From contig NZ_CP137854.1 in the NCBI RefSeq assembly GCF_033546935.1, forward strand, positions 3,534,001 through 3,598,000: DNA of 64,000 nt, given 5' to 3'. Shown in pieces: positions 2,948 to 53,986 of this stretch. The notes under the pieces are model-generated. The model was not told where the DNA came from and did no database searches. It saw only the letters and a program-made list of their open reading frames with translations. The translations under genes were made by a program, and so were the position numbers. Source of the stretch: Xylophilus sp. GOD-11R. Its GTDB lineage: Bacteria; Pseudomonadota; Gammaproteobacteria; Burkholderiales; Burkholderiaceae_C. How positions within the stretch are numbered: the first letter of the stretch is position 1; each line of letters starts with the position of its first letter.

Positions 2948-4039
2948 TCAAGCTCCCGCGACGGTATGGACGACGGCGGCTTGTCGTTTGACGCGCCGGA
3001 TGCGATAGGCCACCAGCGTGTCGCAAGCCAGCAGCGCGAACAGCAGCAGCCCCTGGAACACACCCGTCAACGATTTCGGCAAGCCCAGTCGCGACTGCGC
3101 CAGTTCGCCGCCGATATAGAACATGCTCATCAGCACCGCCGACAGCACCATGCCCACCGGGTGCAGCCGCCCCACGTAGGCCACGATGATCGCCGCGAAG
3201 CCGTAGCCCGCCGGCACATAAGGCGTGAGCTGGCCGATGGGGCCGGCCACTTCCAGGCCACCCGCCAGGCCCGAGGCGCCGCCGGAAATCAGCAACGCGG
3301 TCCACAGCGCCTTGCGCGACGAAAAACCCGCGTAACGCGCCGCTGCCGGCGCCAGCCCGCCGACCTGCAGCGAGAAGCCCGCCCGGGTGCGGAACAGAAA
3401 GATCCACAGCGCCGCCACCCCCACCAGCGCGATGATCACGCCGATGTTCATGCGCGATCCCTTCATCAGCTTGGGGATCTGCGTCACTGCGTCGAAGTTG
3501 CGTGTCTGCGGGAAGTTGTAGCCCATCGGGTCTTTCCACGGCCCGTAGACCAGGTAGCCCAGCACCAGCACGCCCACATACACCAGCATCAGGCTCACCA
3601 AAATCTCGCTGGCGTTGAATTTGTCGCGCAACAGCGCCACCAGCCCGGCCCATGCCATGCCGCCGGCAACGCCCGCCAGCAGGATCACCGGCACGATCCA
3701 CGGCCCGGTGCTCTTGTCGGCCATCAGCGCCACGCCACCGGCAGCCACCGCGCCGATCACGAACTGCCCTTCCGCGCCGATGTTCCACACGTTGGAGCGA
3801 AAGCACACCGCCAGGCCGAGGGCGATCAGCAGCAGCGGCGTCGCCTTGACCACCAGTTCGCCGATGGCGTACTGCGTCTTGATCGGCTCCCAGAAGAAAA
3901 CCTGCAGCCCGCGGATCGGATCCTTGCCGAGCGACGAGAACAGGATCACCCCGACCAGCACCGTCACGGCCAGCGCCAGCAGCGGCGAGCCGTAGGTCCA
4001 GAACTTCGACGGCTGCGGCCGCGCCTCGAGCTTAAGCAT
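2948..4039 (-). CDS. ABC transporter permease (BMP-type importer)
   Basis: A 363-residue permease, the longer partner of the pair, as usual in NupP/YufP-type nucleoside importers. After a charged N-terminus (MLKLEARPQPSKFW) come about nine hydrophobic segments. The typical motif LAVCFRSNVWNIGAEGQFVIG is seen around residues 75-95, and LLISGGASGLAGGLEVAGP corresponds to the cytoplasmic coupling loop. Its start overlaps the ATPase stop by 8 nt, showing translational coupling. With the product of 2023-2943 it makes the membrane channel. Confidence 0.9.
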   Translation of the reverse strand: MLKLEARPQPSKFWTYGSPLLALAVTVLVGVILFSSLGKDPIRGLQVFFWEPIKTQYAIGELVVKATPLLLIALGLAVCFRSNVWNIGAEGQFVIGAVAAGGVALMADKSTGPWIVPVILLAGVAGGMAWAGLVALLRDKFNASEILVSLMLVYVGVLVLGYLVYGPWKDPMGYNFPQTRNFDAVTQIPKLMKGSRMNIGVIIALVGVAALWIFLFRTRAGFSLQVGGLAPAAARYAGFSSRKALWTALLISGGASGLAGGLEVAGPIGQLTPYVPAGYGFAAIIVAYVGRLHPVGMVLSAVLMSMFYIGGELAQSRLGLPKSLTGVFQGLLLFALLACDTLVAYRIRRVKRQAAVVHTVAGA

Positions 4040-5597
4040 GGGCGGCTCCCTGCACGGCGGCGGCCGGGGCGTCTTCCCACAGGCCGCTCATCCACTGGCC
4101 GATCTTCTCCACCGTGGCCTCGGCCCGGGCAACGGAAGGCGACAGGCGCCCCTTGGCAATGACATGCATGCGATCGCTCAATTCGAAGAGTTCGTCCAGT
4201 TCCTCGCTCACCACCAGCACCGCGCAACCGGCGTCGCGCAGGGCCAGGATCTCGCCGCGGATCTGCGCGGCCGCGCCCACGTCCACGCCCCAGGTCGGCT
4301 GCGACACGATGAGCAGCCTGGGCCTGGCGTCGATCTCGCGGCCGACGATGAATTTCTGCAGGTTGCCGCCCGACAGCGACTTGGCCGGCGCGTTCGGCCC
4401 GCCCGCCTTCACGTTGAACCGGCGGATGATGTCGGCCGCCTGCGCCTGCAGCGGCCCGAGCTTCAGCCAGCCGCCCGCGCCCACCGCGTCGCCGCGTGTG
4501 AGCAGCAGGTTGTGCGCCAGGCCCAGCGTGGGCACCGCGCCGCGGCCCAGCCGCTCCTCGGGCACGAACTGCAGGCCGAGCTTGCGGCGCTGCGTGGGGC
4601 CGAGCCGGCCGACCGGCACGCCGGAAATCTCCACCGCCGACGGCGCCGCGCGGGTGTCTTCGCCGGACAGCGCGTAGAGCAATTCCTGCTGGCCGTTGCC
4701 CGACACGCCCGCGATGCCCACCACCTCGCCCGAGCGCACATGCAGCGCCACGTCGTCCAGGTCCACACCGAAGACCGAGCCCTTGGCCAGGCTCAGGCCC
4801 TTCACCGTGAGCACCGCCGCGCCGGCCTTGGAAGCCCGGTGCTCCAGCGCCGGCGGTTCGGCGCCGATCATCAGGCGCGAGAGCGAGGCGTTGGATTCTT
4901 CCGTCGGGTTGCAGACCCCGGTCACCTTGCCGCCGCGCAGCACGGTGCAGGCGGTGCACAGCTCGCGGATCTCGTGCAGCTTGTGGCTGATGTAGAGGAT
5001 GCTGCAGCCCTCCGACGCGAGCTTCTTCAGCACCACGAAGAGCTTCTCCACCGCCTGCGGCGTCAGCACCGAGGTGGGCTCGTCGAGGATGAGCAGGCGC
5101 GGGTCGGTCAGTAGCGCGCGGATGATCTCCACCCGCTGCATCTCGCCCACCGACAGGGTGTGCACCGGCCGCAGCGGGTCGATGTCGAGCCCGTATTCGG
5201 CCGCCTTGGCGGCGATGCGTTCGGTGACGGTGGCCAGCGGCACCGAGCGATCCAGGCCCAGCCACACGTTCTCGGCCACGGTCATGGTGTCGAACAGGCT
5301 GAAATGCTGGAACACCATCGCGATGCCCAGGCCACGCGCCTCCTGCGGGTTCTTCACCAGCACCGGCTTGCCGTCGAAGCGCACCGAGCCTTCGTCGGGC
5401 TTGACCGAGCCGTAGATGATCTTCATCAACGTCGACTTGCCCGCGCCGTTCTCGCCCAGCACCGCGTGGGTCTGGCCGGGCAGCACCGTGAGCGAGACGT
5501 CGCTGTTGGCCACCACCGCCGGATAGCGCTTGGTGATGCCTTCGAGCTGCAGGCGGGGCACGGGCGGAATGCCGGGTGGCGGGTTGACTGGTTTCAT
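4032..5597 (-). CDS. ABC transporter ATP-binding protein with two nucleotide-binding domains
   Basis: A 521-residue double ATPase of the sugar/nucleoside importer type. Domain 1 (about residues 15-250) has Walker A GENGAGKST, signature LSVGEMQR and Walker B LLILDEPTS. Domain 2 (about 260-510) has a degenerate Walker A (GVSGNGQQELL), an intact signature LSGGNLQK and a modified Walker B (LLIVSQPTWG). This asymmetry is normal for the family. The ATG at 5597 is preferred over a TTG two codons upstream. It is the first gene of the importer operon, 51 nt downstream of the LysR gene on the same strand, so readthrough from that gene is possible. Confidence 0.93.
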   Translation of the reverse strand: MKPVNPPPGIPPVPRLQLEGITKRYPAVVANSDVSLTVLPGQTHAVLGENGAGKSTLMKIIYGSVKPDEGSVRFDGKPVLVKNPQEARGLGIAMVFQHFSLFDTMTVAENVWLGLDRSVPLATVTERIAAKAAEYGLDIDPLRPVHTLSVGEMQRVEIIRALLTDPRLLILDEPTSVLTPQAVEKLFVVLKKLASEGCSILYISHKLHEIRELCTACTVLRGGKVTGVCNPTEESNASLSRLMIGAEPPALEHRASKAGAAVLTVKGLSLAKGSVFGVDLDDVALHVRSGEVVGIAGVSGNGQQELLYALSGEDTRAAPSAVEISGVPVGRLGPTQRRKLGLQFVPEERLGRGAVPTLGLAHNLLLTRGDAVGAGGWLKLGPLQAQAADIIRRFNVKAGGPNAPAKSLSGGNLQKFIVGREIDARPRLLIVSQPTWGVDVGAAAQIRGEILALRDAGCAVLVVSEELDELFELSDRMHVIAKGRLSPSVARAEATVEKIGQWMSGLWEDAPAAAVQGAAHA

Positions 5598-50526: not shown

Positions 50527-50641
50527 GCGGGCCCTTCTCCCGGCGCTCCTACAACGCACCCCGTCGCACGCCGACGGAGCACACGGCAATGCGGCGCTAA
50601 CTTGGATGGCCCCTCACCCGACCCGCGAAGCGACAACGCCG

Positions 50642-51649
50642 ATGCCCGATCCGAACCCCGGCGAAACCCTGTCCCGACTGCAGCGCCAGCACGGCGCCGA
50701 ACTGCGGCTTTCCCGACTGCTCGACGCCCATCTGGATGAGCTTCCCCTTCCGGGCGCCGGCCGCACCCTCGACCGCTGGCGATGGCTCGCCGCCGTCGCG
50801 GCCTGCGACCTTTCCCTGGTCAAGCTCTTCGAAGGCCACACCGATGCACTGGCCATCCTGGCCGAGCTCGGCGGCCCCGACGTGCCACCGGGCAGCGCCT
50901 GGGGCACCTGGTGCGCCGAGCCGCCGGATGCACGACTGGAATTTCGGCCCGACGGCGACGATGGCCGGCTGCGCATCGACGGCACCAAGGCCTGGTGCTC
51001 GGGCGCTGCCAGCGTCGACCACGCCCTGGTCAGCGGCTGGGACGCCGACGGCCGACCCTGCCTGGCCGCCGTCGCGCTGCGGCAGCCTGGCGTTCGGGTG
51101 ACCGACACCGGCTGGCAGGCCGTCGGCATGGCCGGCAGCGCCAGCGTCAACGTGTGTTTCGACCGCGCCGTGGGCCAGGCGGTCGGCGGCCCGGGCGACT
51201 ACACCGCGCGGCCCGGCTTCTGGCAGGGCGGCATCGGCGTGGCGGCTTGCTGGTTCGGCGGCGCGCAGGCCATCGCCGACATGGCAATGGAACAATCACG
51301 CGGCCGGAGCGACCCGCACCGGCTGGCGCACCTCGGCGAGATAGACGTGGCCCTGTCGGGCGCCGCCGCCGTGCTGCGCGAGGCCGCCGCGGCGATCGAC
51401 TCACATCCCCAGGCCAATGCCCAAGAACTCGCATTGCGCGCCCGCCTGGTAGTGGAAGCCGCCTGCGACGCGGTGCTGCGCCACGCCACCCGGGCGCTCG
51501 GCGCCGGGCCGCTGTGTCGAAACGCCCGCTTCGCGCGGCTGGTGGCCGACCTGCCGGTCTACCTGCGGCAAAGCCACGCCGAACGCGACCTGGCCGCGCT
51601 CGGGCAGGGCACGGTCGACAGCGGAGGAGCCCGCCCATGGACGCTCTGA
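50642..51649 (+). CDS. Acyl-CoA-dehydrogenase-like protein
   Basis: A 335-residue protein, shorter than typical acyl-CoA dehydrogenases (~380). The middle domain shows the FAD-contact pattern LRIDGTKAWCSGAASVDHALV, and the C-terminal helical domain ends HAERDLAALGQGTVDSG. No clear catalytic Glu was identified. The start is ATG 50642; an ATG 36 nt upstream is possible. It overlaps the deacetylase gene by 13 nt, so the two are translationally coupled. Probably it reduces or oxidises an acyl group in the product of this cluster rather than in beta-oxidation (inference). Confidence 0.78.
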   Translation: MPDPNPGETLSRLQRQHGAELRLSRLLDAHLDELPLPGAGRTLDRWRWLAAVAACDLSLVKLFEGHTDALAILAELGGPDVPPGSAWGTWCAEPPDARLEFRPDGDDGRLRIDGTKAWCSGAASVDHALVSGWDADGRPCLAAVALRQPGVRVTDTGWQAVGMAGSASVNVCFDRAVGQAVGGPGDYTARPGFWQGGIGVAACWFGGAQAIADMAMEQSRGRSDPHRLAHLGEIDVALSGAAAVLREAAAAIDSHPQANAQELALRARLVVEAACDAVLRHATRALGAGPLCRNARFARLVADLPVYLRQSHAERDLAALGQGTVDSGGARPWTL

Positions 51650-52404
51650 ACGAGAACACCCGCTTCATCGACGCCAGCGACGGCACCCCCGAATCCGTAT
51701 GGCTGCACGCCCCCGGACTGGACGCGATCCCGGCCGTCGATCCGCAGACACTGGTGCCGGCCGGATCACGCGCGGTAGTGGTGGCGCCGCATCCGGATGA
51801 CGAGGTGCTGTCCGTCGGCGGCCTGATGGCCGAACTTTCCGCGGCGGGCCGCGAGATCTGCGTCGTCGCCGTGACCGACGGCGATGCCAGCCACCCCGGA
51901 TCGAGCCTGTGGAGCGCGAGTGAACTCGCCTGCGTGCGCCGCCACGAGACCCGCATCGCCCTGCGCCGACTCGGTTTGCAGCACGAGGCGATACGGCTCG
52001 GCCTGCCCGATGGAGGCCTGCAGGCGCGGCGCGAAGAACTCGCCGACCAGATCGCCGCGCTGCTGCAGCCGAACGACGTGGTCTTCTGCACCTGGCGCCT
52101 GGACGGCCACCCGGACCACGACGCCACCGGAGAAGCCTGCGCCACGGCGACATCGCGCGCCGGAGCCAAGCTGATCGAAGTGCCGGTATGGGCGTGGCAC
52201 TGGTCCAGGCCGGGCGATCCGCGCCTGCCCTGGGCGCGCGCTTTGCGCCTGCCGCTCGGCGCCGATGCGGTGCGGCGCAAACGCGAGGCCGTTACCGCCT
52301 TTCGCAGCCAGCTAGAACCCGACGTCACCACCGGCGCGCCGCCGATCCTGCGCGCCAGCACCGTCGCGCGCGCGTCGCGGCCCTTCGAGATCGTCTTCGC
52401 ATGA
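51637..52404 (+). CDS. PIG-L-family deacetylase
   Basis: A 255-residue zinc deacetylase: APHPDDEVLSVGG (~50-60) gives the first His and the catalytic Asp pair, and LDGHPDHDATGEA gives the last His ligand. The fold removes N-acetyl groups from sugars (as in GPI or mycothiol synthesis) or similar amides. A strong GGAGGAG site is at 51622. The end overlaps the methyltransferase start (ATGA). A sugar N-acetyl is the likely substrate given the nearby glycosyltransferase. Confidence 0.92.
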   Translation: MDALNENTRFIDASDGTPESVWLHAPGLDAIPAVDPQTLVPAGSRAVVVAPHPDDEVLSVGGLMAELSAAGREICVVAVTDGDASHPGSSLWSASELACVRRHETRIALRRLGLQHEAIRLGLPDGGLQARREELADQIAALLQPNDVVFCTWRLDGHPDHDATGEACATATSRAGAKLIEVPVWAWHWSRPGDPRLPWARALRLPLGADAVRRKREAVTAFRSQLEPDVTTGAPPILRASTVARASRPFEIVFA

Positions 52405-53015
52405 ACATCTCGCCTACGGCCAAGCACAGCTATTTCACCGACCTGTACCGGGCGAGCGACGACCCCTACGCGGTGCGCACCCGCTGGTACGAGCAACGCA
52501 AGCGCCAGCTGCTGCTGGCCTCGCTGCCGTCGCCGTCGTATGCCAACGCCTTCGAACCCGGCTGCGGCGTGGGTGAGCTGACCGTGGGCCTGGCGGCCCG
52601 CTGCACGCGTTTGCTGGCGAGCGATTTCACGGAAGACGCCGTGCAGATCGCGCGACAGCGCACGGCGCCGCTCACCAACGTCGAGGTGATCCGCCAGACC
52701 CTGCCCGCCGACTGGCCGCACCCGTCCGCGCCCTTCGACCTGATCGTGCTGAGCGAGATGGGCTACTTCCTCGACGCTGATTCGTGGGCGCAGGTGGTCG
52801 ACGCGATCCGGACCAGCCTCGCACCCGGCGGCACGCTGGTCGCCTGCGACTGGTTACCGGATTTCGCTGAGCGCGCCCAACCGACCCGCGCACTGCACGC
52901 CGCCTTGGACGGGCTCGGCCTGCACACGCTGGTGCGGCACGAGGAGGCCGACTTCCTGCTGCGCGTCTGGAGCGCGGACGAGCGCTCGGTCGCACAGCGC
53001 GAACGCATCCGCTGA
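52401..53015 (+). CDS. SAM-dependent methyltransferase (NodS-like)
   Basis: A 204-residue class I methyltransferase. Motif I is FEPGCGVGELTVGL; LLASDFTEDAV is the acidic-loop strand and LIVLSEMGYFLD motif IV. The N-terminus SPTAKHSYFTDLYRASDDPYAVRTRWYEQRKR is of the type found in NodS, which N-methylates the deacetylated glucosamine end of Nod factors. Coupled to the PIG-L gene by ATGA overlap, so it may N-methylate the deacetylated product. Confidence 0.88.
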   Translation: MNISPTAKHSYFTDLYRASDDPYAVRTRWYEQRKRQLLLASLPSPSYANAFEPGCGVGELTVGLAARCTRLLASDFTEDAVQIARQRTAPLTNVEVIRQTLPADWPHPSAPFDLIVLSEMGYFLDADSWAQVVDAIRTSLAPGGTLVACDWLPDFAERAQPTRALHAALDGLGLHTLVRHEEADFLLRVWSADERSVAQRERIR

Positions 53016-53025
53016 AGCCGCGGCC

Positions 53026-53265
53026 TCAGCTCTCCTGGTTCTTGCGCAGGCCGCGGATGTTCATCGCCGCCAGGCAGACCTGCAGCGCCATCAACGCCAA
53101 GGCCTGGGCATGCAGGCCCCAGCCGATCCACAGCACGTTGCTCGCCAGGAATACCCAGAACCCGATCTTGCGTTTGCGCTCGACATCCGAGGCCACCAGC
53201 CAGGCCGCCGCCACCGAAGCGGCGAAGGCGAACCACTGCAGCACGTTGTAGAAGGAATCGTCCAT
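53026..53265 (-). CDS. Small three-helix membrane protein
   Basis: A 79-residue protein read from ATG 53265 (MDDSFYNVLQWFAFAASVAA). Hydrophobic segments are WFAFAASVAAAWLVASD, FWVFLASNVLWIGWGL and LALMALQVCLAAM, resembling one half of PnuC/YgjV/amino-acid-lipid exporter-type small proteins. Four nucleotides after the glycosyltransferase stop; same strand, so probably cotranscribed with it. It may help translocate the cluster's product. Confidence 0.75.
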   Translation of the reverse strand: MDDSFYNVLQWFAFAASVAAAWLVASDVERKRKIGFWVFLASNVLWIGWGLHAQALALMALQVCLAAMNIRGLRKNQES

Positions 53266-53269
53266 CCGT

Positions 53270-53986
53270 TCAGGCACCGACCGGCACAACGGCAGACAAG
53301 GCCTTGGCCGATGCGTCGGCCAGCCGCTGCGACACCGCGCCGATCAGTGCGTCGGCAAATCCGCCCACCGCCCGCGCCTGCCGGCGGGCACTGGTGGTCA
53401 CCCGCGGCCGGGCGCTCCAGGCGATGTTGGCGCCGGCCGCCTGCAGGGCATCGACCAACGCCACGTCCTCGCTGCAGGCCATGGGCCGGAAGCCGCCGAC
53501 GCGCCGATACGCCTCGGCCGCCACACCCAGGTTGGCGCCGTGCACATGCCGATGCCCGTCGCGGTCGAAATAGGTGAGCTCGAAATGCGCCCGCAGCAGG
53601 TCGGCGTGTTCGCCGTGCGGCGACCAGTCGTCCACGCCGACCGTGCCGCAGACCGCGTCGGCCCGCAGTGCGAGCTGCTCGGCCAGCCAGTCCGCCTGCA
53701 CGCAGCTGTCGGCATCGGTGAACGCCAGCCAGCGCGCGCCAAGCGCCAGCAAGGCTTCGGCACCTGCTGCGCGCGCCGCGCCCACGTTGCGCAGATCGGC
53801 CGACAGACAGATCGCACCGCGCCGTGCGGCGATCACGCCGGTGGCGTCGGTGCAGCTGTCGAGCACGACCACGATCTCCACCGCCTCGCCCTGCAGCGCC
53901 GGATGCGTGGCCGCCTCGCGCGCGGCATGCAGGCAGTCGTCGATGGTGTCTTGTTCGTTGTGCGCGGGGATGACGATGCCGAGCAT
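53270..53986 (-). CDS. Family-2 glycosyltransferase
   Basis: A 238-residue GT-A-type glycosyltransferase. VIPAHNEQDTIDDCL (start), VVVLDSCTDAT and the DxD-type LAFTDADSCVQADWL are the family motifs; ANLGVAAEAYRRVGGF and CSEDVALVDAL are acceptor-side blocks including the catalytic ED. No membrane segments except a weak one. The start at 53986 (MLGIVIPAHN) is chosen as the motif begins there. Convergent with the methyltransferase group across the small membrane protein gene. Confidence 0.9.
   Translation of the reverse strand: MLGIVIPAHNEQDTIDDCLHAAREAATHPALQGEAVEIVVVLDSCTDATGVIAARRGAICLSADLRNVGAARAAGAEALLALGARWLAFTDADSCVQADWLAEQLALRADAVCGTVGVDDWSPHGEHADLLRAHFELTYFDRDGHRHVHGANLGVAAEAYRRVGGFRPMACSEDVALVDALQAAGANIAWSARPRVTTSARRQARAVGGFADALIGAVSQRLADASAKALSAVVPVGA

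Follow-up and report, generated by a model that had tools for sequence, protein, structure and literature searches.

The question raised by this locus is whether five closely packed genes belong together and, if so, what they make. A frame check gave 5 intact ORFs over 50,606-53,986 of the window (the whole stretch of DNA analysed, 64,000 nt). Three lie on the plus strand: an ACAD-like flavoprotein gene at 50,642-51,649, a PIG-L deacetylase gene at 51,637-52,404, which overlaps it by 13 nt, and a NodS-family methyltransferase gene at 52,401-53,015, which overlaps the PIG-L gene by 4 nt. They converge, with a stop-to-stop gap of 10 nt, on two minus-strand genes separated by 4 nt, which encode a small membrane protein of 79 aa (53,026-53,265) and a family-2 glycosyltransferase, GT2 (53,270-53,986). 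For the flavoprotein gene, which has an alternative ATG at 50,606, the start at 50,642 is favoured because the database entry for the window's own flavoprotein has 335 aa. The earlier note had described this layout with both overlaps correctly, and the family names that it gave to the enzymes are borne out by the family matches.

The earlier note had also let its reading depend on the five genes co-occurring elsewhere. When this was checked, four of them were found together widely and the membrane protein gene was not. All four profiles (flavoprotein, PIG-L, methyltransferase and GT2) were present in 30 of 36 regions located with the flavoprotein profile, whereas none of them turned up in any of 20 control regions, which rules out chance adjacency. 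Individually, the methyltransferase was found in 34 of these regions, PIG-L in 32 and GT2 in 30. The regions were pooled from 13 of 200, 6 of 274 and 21 of 200 genomes, partly overlapping, with G000 excluded and the second places G659:C49, G027:C2, G022:C119 and G575:C26 omitted. Another set was anchored on GT2 and comprises the best 80 of at least 439 confirmed places, mainly in Variovorax and relatives; it is not disjoint from the flavoprotein set, since the coordinates of G558 (L134) are identical to those in the genome of L085. All four genes are present in 53 of these 80 loci, only PIG-L is missing in 12, only the ACAD-like gene in 1, and GT2 stands alone in 14, with the ACAD-like gene located elsewhere in 13 of those 14 genomes. 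Of the 44 loci in this set with adjacent methyltransferase and GT2 genes, 36 show an overlap of exactly 4 nt between the two. One locus (L130) is truncated by the contig end and another (L133) is a very long branch, probably outside the family. The complete set of four was seen in an Acinetobacter plasmid, Comamonas, Kitasatospora, Nostoc and Legionella lytica; D. radiodurans gave the ACAD-like gene, PIG-L and the methyltransferase, with no GT2 match. We conclude that the four genes form a real, widespread and conserved module with fusion-like gene coupling. The membrane protein gene, found in 5 of the 36 and 9 of the 80 regions and in 0 of 8 plasmid regions and 0 of 20 controls, is ruled out as a core part by its presence in only 14 of 116 related regions; it is an optional companion or local extra outside the module core, and its PnuC- and YgjV-type family matches are all under the cut-off.

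The product of 51,637-52,404 is predicted to be a PIG-L (LmbE-type) metal-dependent N-deacetylase. It matches PF02585 at 6.8e-31 (107.9 bits against a cut-off of 28.2) and carries the motifs HPDDE and DGHPDH, with H52, D55, E56, D160 and H161 invariant across 17 rows. A GlcNAc-glycoside chemistry is supported by its family: the top matches of the profile in PDB are diacetylchitobiose deacetylase (1.3e-22), GlcNAc-malate deacetylase (2.8e-15) and MshB (3e-12). Against the equivalog profiles the protein stays below both cut-offs, with 64.3 bits for BshB1 (cut-off 182.5) and 23.3 for MshB (cut-off 224). PIG-L genes in general are insufficient to mark the module, because the seven weaker of 16 PIG-L places have no module partner. 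Among the best nine (L001-L009), seven carry the full set of four inside 3.8 kb, L003 has three genes plus the membrane protein, its GT2 being more distant (L138), and L005 has PIG-L alone.

The product of 52,401-53,015 is, by its predicted family, a NodS-family SAM-dependent methyltransferase. It matches PF05401 (NodS) at 2.5e-10 (41 bits, cut-off 24), as do all 18 methyltransferases scanned (E <= 1e-5); on the NCBI NodS equivalog it scores 56.6 bits, below the cut-off of 300, and its PDB relatives include 4isc (7.8e-42) and NodS 3ofj (3.4e-12). The deacetylation and N-methylation chemistry suggested in the earlier note is supported as far as the families go, PIG-L being nearest to GlcNAc-glycoside deacetylases and the methyltransferases all matching NodS. 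An obligatory relay from PIG-L to the NodS-type enzyme is ruled out, since 12 of the 80 GT2-anchored loci have the other three genes without PIG-L. Of 13 genomes of this kind that were searched, 8 have no PIG-L match, 4 have only a distant match and 1 a close one. On a tree of 108 rows, labelled by the content of the fetched stretch only, the presence of PIG-L changes at least 6 times, with bootstrap unsettled and gains indistinguishable from losses.

The product of 53,270-53,986 is a soluble GT-A fold family-2 glycosyltransferase of 238 aa, in which NodC-like membrane segments are absent by inspection. It matches Glycos_transf_2 (PF00535) at 2.3e-14, above the Pfam cut-off, with the motifs TDAD, RDGHRHVHGAN and SEDV, and it is the sole copy in this genome. 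Its model (pLDDT 77) matches only the generic GT-A fold, and its profile gave no match among PDB sequences.

The flavoprotein matches the Pfam family Acyl-CoA_dh_M at 1.1e-5 (25.9 bits), under the cut-off of 33.3, and its predicted structure (pLDDT 86) has the ACAD fold with FAD-binding domains. In the alignment, all 19 family rows have Gln in place of the catalytic Glu/His at the C-terminal column, and an invariant His lies two residues beyond it. Of the 12 PF00441 rows from this genome, only 6 have Glu at the same column, some ACAD subfamilies carrying the catalytic Glu at another position; the SfnB-profile rows have His there (HDP/HNP motif) in 8 of 8 cases, 3 of which are under the SfnB cut-off. 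The family and the canonical ACADs fall into separate clades on the tree, each starred; because the tree is unrooted, the nearer relative of the flavoprotein clade cannot be read from it. An ordinary acyl-CoA dehydrogenase is ruled out by the Gln and the separate clade, and simple SfnB/DszC membership by the Gln in place of the conserved His, again with the separate clade. As judged from alignment and model, the flavoprotein is a predicted ACAD-fold protein with a clade of its own. It resembles the ACAD-fold flavin oxygenases (DszC/TdsC, MsuC, SfnB and the sugar nitrososynthases KijD3/DnmZ): its top profile matches in PDB are TdsC (9.6e-15) and DszC (2.9e-11), and it shares the CSGA motif with DszC, but differs from them in the Gln at the C-terminal column and in its clade. 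Foldseek with the model ranked an aminosugar-nucleotide complex of KijD3 second; comparison of the model with known structures gave no separation of dehydrogenase from oxygenase.

In other genomes the module often has stress-linked genes as neighbours. Stress markers (catalase, OtsA, OtsB, GlgX, GlgB, GlgE, DUF421, PA2169 and PfpI, a set picked after viewing the table) occur near it in 13 of 36 regions against 0 of 20 controls (Fisher p 0.002). Unguided clustering of neighbours in 44 regions recovered catalase 7 times, OtsA 5, OtsB 5 and a MalQ-containing protein 4, with 0 in the controls. For example, the order otsB-otsA-ACAD-PIGL-MT-GT2 is found on one strand in four loci (L036, L086, L118 and L121), otsA-ACAD-PIGL-MT-GT2-otsB on one strand in L098, and otsB-GH65-PIGL-MT-GT2-ACAD in L101, while glgX abuts the ACAD-like gene in Pseudomonas brassicacearum (L096). 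Thus the module repeatedly adjoins trehalose, glycogen and KatE-type catalase genes in relatives. No such trehalose/catalase stress-island genes lie near it in the 64,000-nt window; OtsA and TreS are encoded in this genome. In those relatives the neighbourhood is shared with the known trehalose/glycogen and KatE stress islands, such as the Pseudomonas treY/Z operon, and in P. fluorescens the glycogen/trehalose operons and KatE are described as RpoS-dependent (PMC6372562). The difference is that these four genes are absent from the available portions of PMC6372562, PMC8982409, PMC8084333 and PMC12442406. A literature search of open-access main texts found the set named nowhere, PMC13130816 included in its accessible part.

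On these grounds we put at about an even chance that the module builds a small modified aminosugar glycoside with which bacteria respond to osmotic, drying or oxidative stress. We infer each reaction, substrate and role, the reaction steps from enzyme family. GT2 would attach a sugar, probably GlcNAc from UDP-GlcNAc, to a small acceptor; PIG-L would strip the acetyl group from the glycoside; the NodS-type enzyme would methylate the amine exposed in this way (in loci lacking PIG-L, a hydroxyl instead); and the flavoprotein may oxidise the product, possibly at nitrogen, like the ACAD-fold sugar nitrososynthases.

Decoration of a surface glycoconjugate or glycolipid (an outer-membrane or envelope sugar), instead of a free small molecule, is the strongest alternative, though an unlikely one: all four enzymes appear soluble, the unguided clustering found no recurrent polymerase, flippase or ligase, and the partners that do recur are trehalose, glycogen and catalase genes. 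Still less probable is a counterpart of mycothiol and bacillithiol with a redox or protective function, in which the amine is methylated and oxidised instead of ligated to cysteine. As in MshA-MshB and BshA-BshB, where a PIG-L enzyme deacetylates the GlcNAc glycoside formed by a glycosyltransferase, the module follows a glycoside-then-deacetylase logic; the nearest profiles to its PIG-L are those of BshB/MshB and diacetylchitobiose deacetylase, all 17 PIG-L proteins compared hit BshB1 with E <= 1e-5 (under the curated cut-off), and catalase genes are neighbours in relatives. However, the module uses a GT2 and not a GT4 enzyme, has no cysteine ligase, adds a methyltransferase and an ACAD-fold flavoprotein, and dispenses with PIG-L in some lineages, as the GT2-anchored loci attest. 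The Nod-factor-like acylated signal of the earlier note is very improbable: although an N-deacetylase, a NodS-family methyltransferase and a glycosyltransferase are present, recalling NodB/NodS tailoring, the deacetylase is of PIG-L and not NodB type, the GT2 is short and soluble, the acyl part is unsupported because the flavoprotein has Gln at the catalytic column and its own clade, and the module is widespread in bacteria, in many relatives beside trehalose, glycogen and catalase genes and not in a symbiosis setting. A NodA search gave no match in this genome, and likewise none in the control genomes, so that it had no positive control.

Within the preferred reading of a stress-related aminosugar glycoside, a more specific proposal is doubtful. 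The product would be a widespread, previously undescribed stress metabolite, a sugar hydroxylamine or nitrone formed when an aminosugar glycoside is both methylated and oxidised at nitrogen. It would act alongside trehalose and catalase in protecting cells from drying and peroxide, and would be made by a third functional ACAD-fold lineage with Gln at the catalytic position.

If these readings are true, the consequences reach beyond this locus. At least 6,711 database proteins, among 7,998 candidates and not all of the same clade, match the window's flavoprotein at E <= 0.001, and thousands of proteins named acyl-CoA dehydrogenase may carry the wrong name. An uncharacterised metabolite pathway would be common to bacteria of at least four phyla, and a new component would be added to desiccation tolerance in bacteria of soil, plants and hospitals.

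The cluster described in the earlier note is real: the position of its five genes and their overlaps were confirmed, and Pfam and NCBIfam uphold the names PIG-L, NodS-family methyltransferase and family-2 glycosyltransferase (GT2), whereas "dehydrogenase" is unsafe as a functional name for the acyl-CoA-dehydrogenase-like (ACAD) flavoprotein (50,642-51,649, plus strand). The neighbours in the window are ordinary: a 2-hydroxyacid dehydrogenase, a glyoxalase-like protein and a CYTH protein lie upstream, and the genes downstream encode a pseudouridine synthase and a protein of the UPF0176/rhodanese type.

These four genes occur together elsewhere. In the 36 regions found with the ACAD profile, the full set was present in 30, the methyltransferase in 34 and PIG-L in 32, but the fifth gene, for a small membrane protein (53,026-53,265, minus strand), is rare (5 of the 36 regions and 9 of the best 80 of 439 GT2-anchored loci), so the proposed five-gene set reduces to four. 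This gene was absent from the 8 plasmid and 20 control regions searched, and in four GT2-anchored loci (L017, L022, L070, L076) it immediately follows GT2 on the same strand, as in the window; we treat it as an optional companion. Among the same best 80 of 439 loci, from named genomes, 53 contained all four genes, 12 lacked only PIG-L and 1 only ACAD, while 14 had GT2 without the other three, ACAD lying elsewhere in 13 of those 14 genomes; where methyltransferase and GT2 are adjacent in these loci, they overlap by 4 nt in 36 of 44 pairs. A search of 60 genomes for PIG-L gave 16 places: all four genes lay inside 3.8 kb in 7 of the 9 strongest, and no partner gene was found at any of the seven weak ones. 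The module profiles had no match in the 20 control regions (nine genomes). Plasmid relatives with all four genes came from Acinetobacter, Comamonas endophytica, Kitasatospora, Nostoc and Legionella lytica; Deinococcus radiodurans has three, and a Methylobacterium plasmid ACAD only. Identity to the module of the window (compared at 50,642-51,649) is about 50% in two same-genus regions (L148, L152) but rises to 55-60% in other genera, and among the matches listed it is 69-73% between the window protein and database proteins under the name Xylophilus, so lineages may have exchanged the module.

For the window flavoprotein, the ACAD middle domain match is under the Pfam cut-off, and the top NCBI models, SfnB and DszC, are both far under theirs. 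Its predicted structure has the full ACAD fold; structure comparison ends in a tie between DszC/TdsC and dehydrogenases, and KijD3, an aminosugar enzyme of ACAD fold, is Foldseek rank 2. We aligned 19 family rows with 8 SfnB-type and 12 canonical PF00441 rows from this genome. At a C-terminal column, which we take to be the catalytic position of the fold, the family has Gln (19/19, with an invariant His two residues further on), the SfnB-type rows His (8/8) and the canonical rows Glu (6/12), and the three sets form separate clades in an unrooted tree. Given this Gln and the separate clades, function cannot safely be read from the name acyl-CoA dehydrogenase, and the acyl part suggested in the earlier note is unsupported. 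In Deinococcus radiodurans (L102:6543-8882) the ACAD part lies within a 779-aa protein whose first ~420 residues have no Pfam match, and one relative has a further copy of the flavoprotein gene (G659:C49:6087-7046), with one in-frame TGA.

The top solved relatives of the PIG-L profile having known activity act on GlcNAc glycosides, and the methyltransferase has a solved relative, 4isc, presumably from Pseudomonas syringae. PIG-L is inessential to the module, because among 13 genomes whose locus lacks it, 8 had no PIG-L match (4 had a distant and 1 a close match) and its presence changes at least 6 times on the flavoprotein tree (108 rows; gains not separable from losses). Such lineages either rely on a different deacetylase or place the methyl group elsewhere. 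On a Cupriavidus basilensis plasmid (L104) a distant PIG-L (4027-4749) adjoins a catalase gene and diverges from an operon of ACAD, methyltransferase and GT2 that has no PIG-L itself; glgE is close by. Behind GT2 in Pseudomonas brassicacearum lies a second PIG-L (L096:9782-10543), with HPGDE for HPDDE and GTPDH for GHPDH in the metal motif, and judging from these residues it is probably inactive as a deacetylase.

We drew neighbourhood probes from the loci on plasmids and from those anchored on GT2, and applied them to the 36 ACAD-found regions. Catalase, OtsA, OtsB, GlgX, GlgB, GlgE, DUF421, PA2169 or PfpI occurred in 13/36 regions against 0/20 controls (Fisher p 0.002, for a marker subset chosen post hoc), and all probes except SDR and histidine kinase, which match controls as well (5/20 and 2/20), in 14/36 against 0/20. 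Unguided clustering also recovers catalase, OtsA, OtsB and a MalQ-containing protein, and the best 80 of 439 GT2-anchored loci include catalase in 17, OtsA in 3, OtsB in 3 and GlgX in 2. Four loci (L036, L086, L118, L121) share the one-strand order otsB-otsA-ACAD-PIG-L-methyltransferase-GT2; otsA and otsB flank the four genes in L098, otsB and a GH65 gene precede them in Legionella lytica, and glgX precedes ACAD in Pseudomonas brassicacearum. In L034, L050 and L085, where GT2 is separated from the other module genes, a long catalase gene precedes it, either immediately or with one small gene in between. None of the trehalose, glycogen and catalase markers was found in the 64-kb window; OtsA and TreS are encoded elsewhere in its genome. 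In the available parts of two papers, glycogen/trehalose operons and KatE of P. fluorescens are RpoS-dependent (PMC6372562) and trehalose operons matter in Pseudomonas water stress (PMC12442406); those parts do not mention the four module genes. The module evidence points to stress physiology over the signalling role suggested in the earlier note.

We infer a pathway, including each reaction, their order and the acceptor, in which GT2 would glycosylate an acceptor, PIG-L would then deacetylate the sugar, the NodS-type enzyme would methylate it and the flavoprotein would carry out a final oxidation. In four distant regions (L123, L124, L129, L132) the module has an additional pair of glycosyltransferases nearby, one GT28-like and one GT2/GT7-like, which suits a sugar product of varying length. 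The logic of a GlcNAc glycoside followed by PIG-L is known; the variant with an unplaced flavoprotein clade is new. The product would be a modified aminosugar glycoside, its synthesis tied to trehalose-type stress protection.
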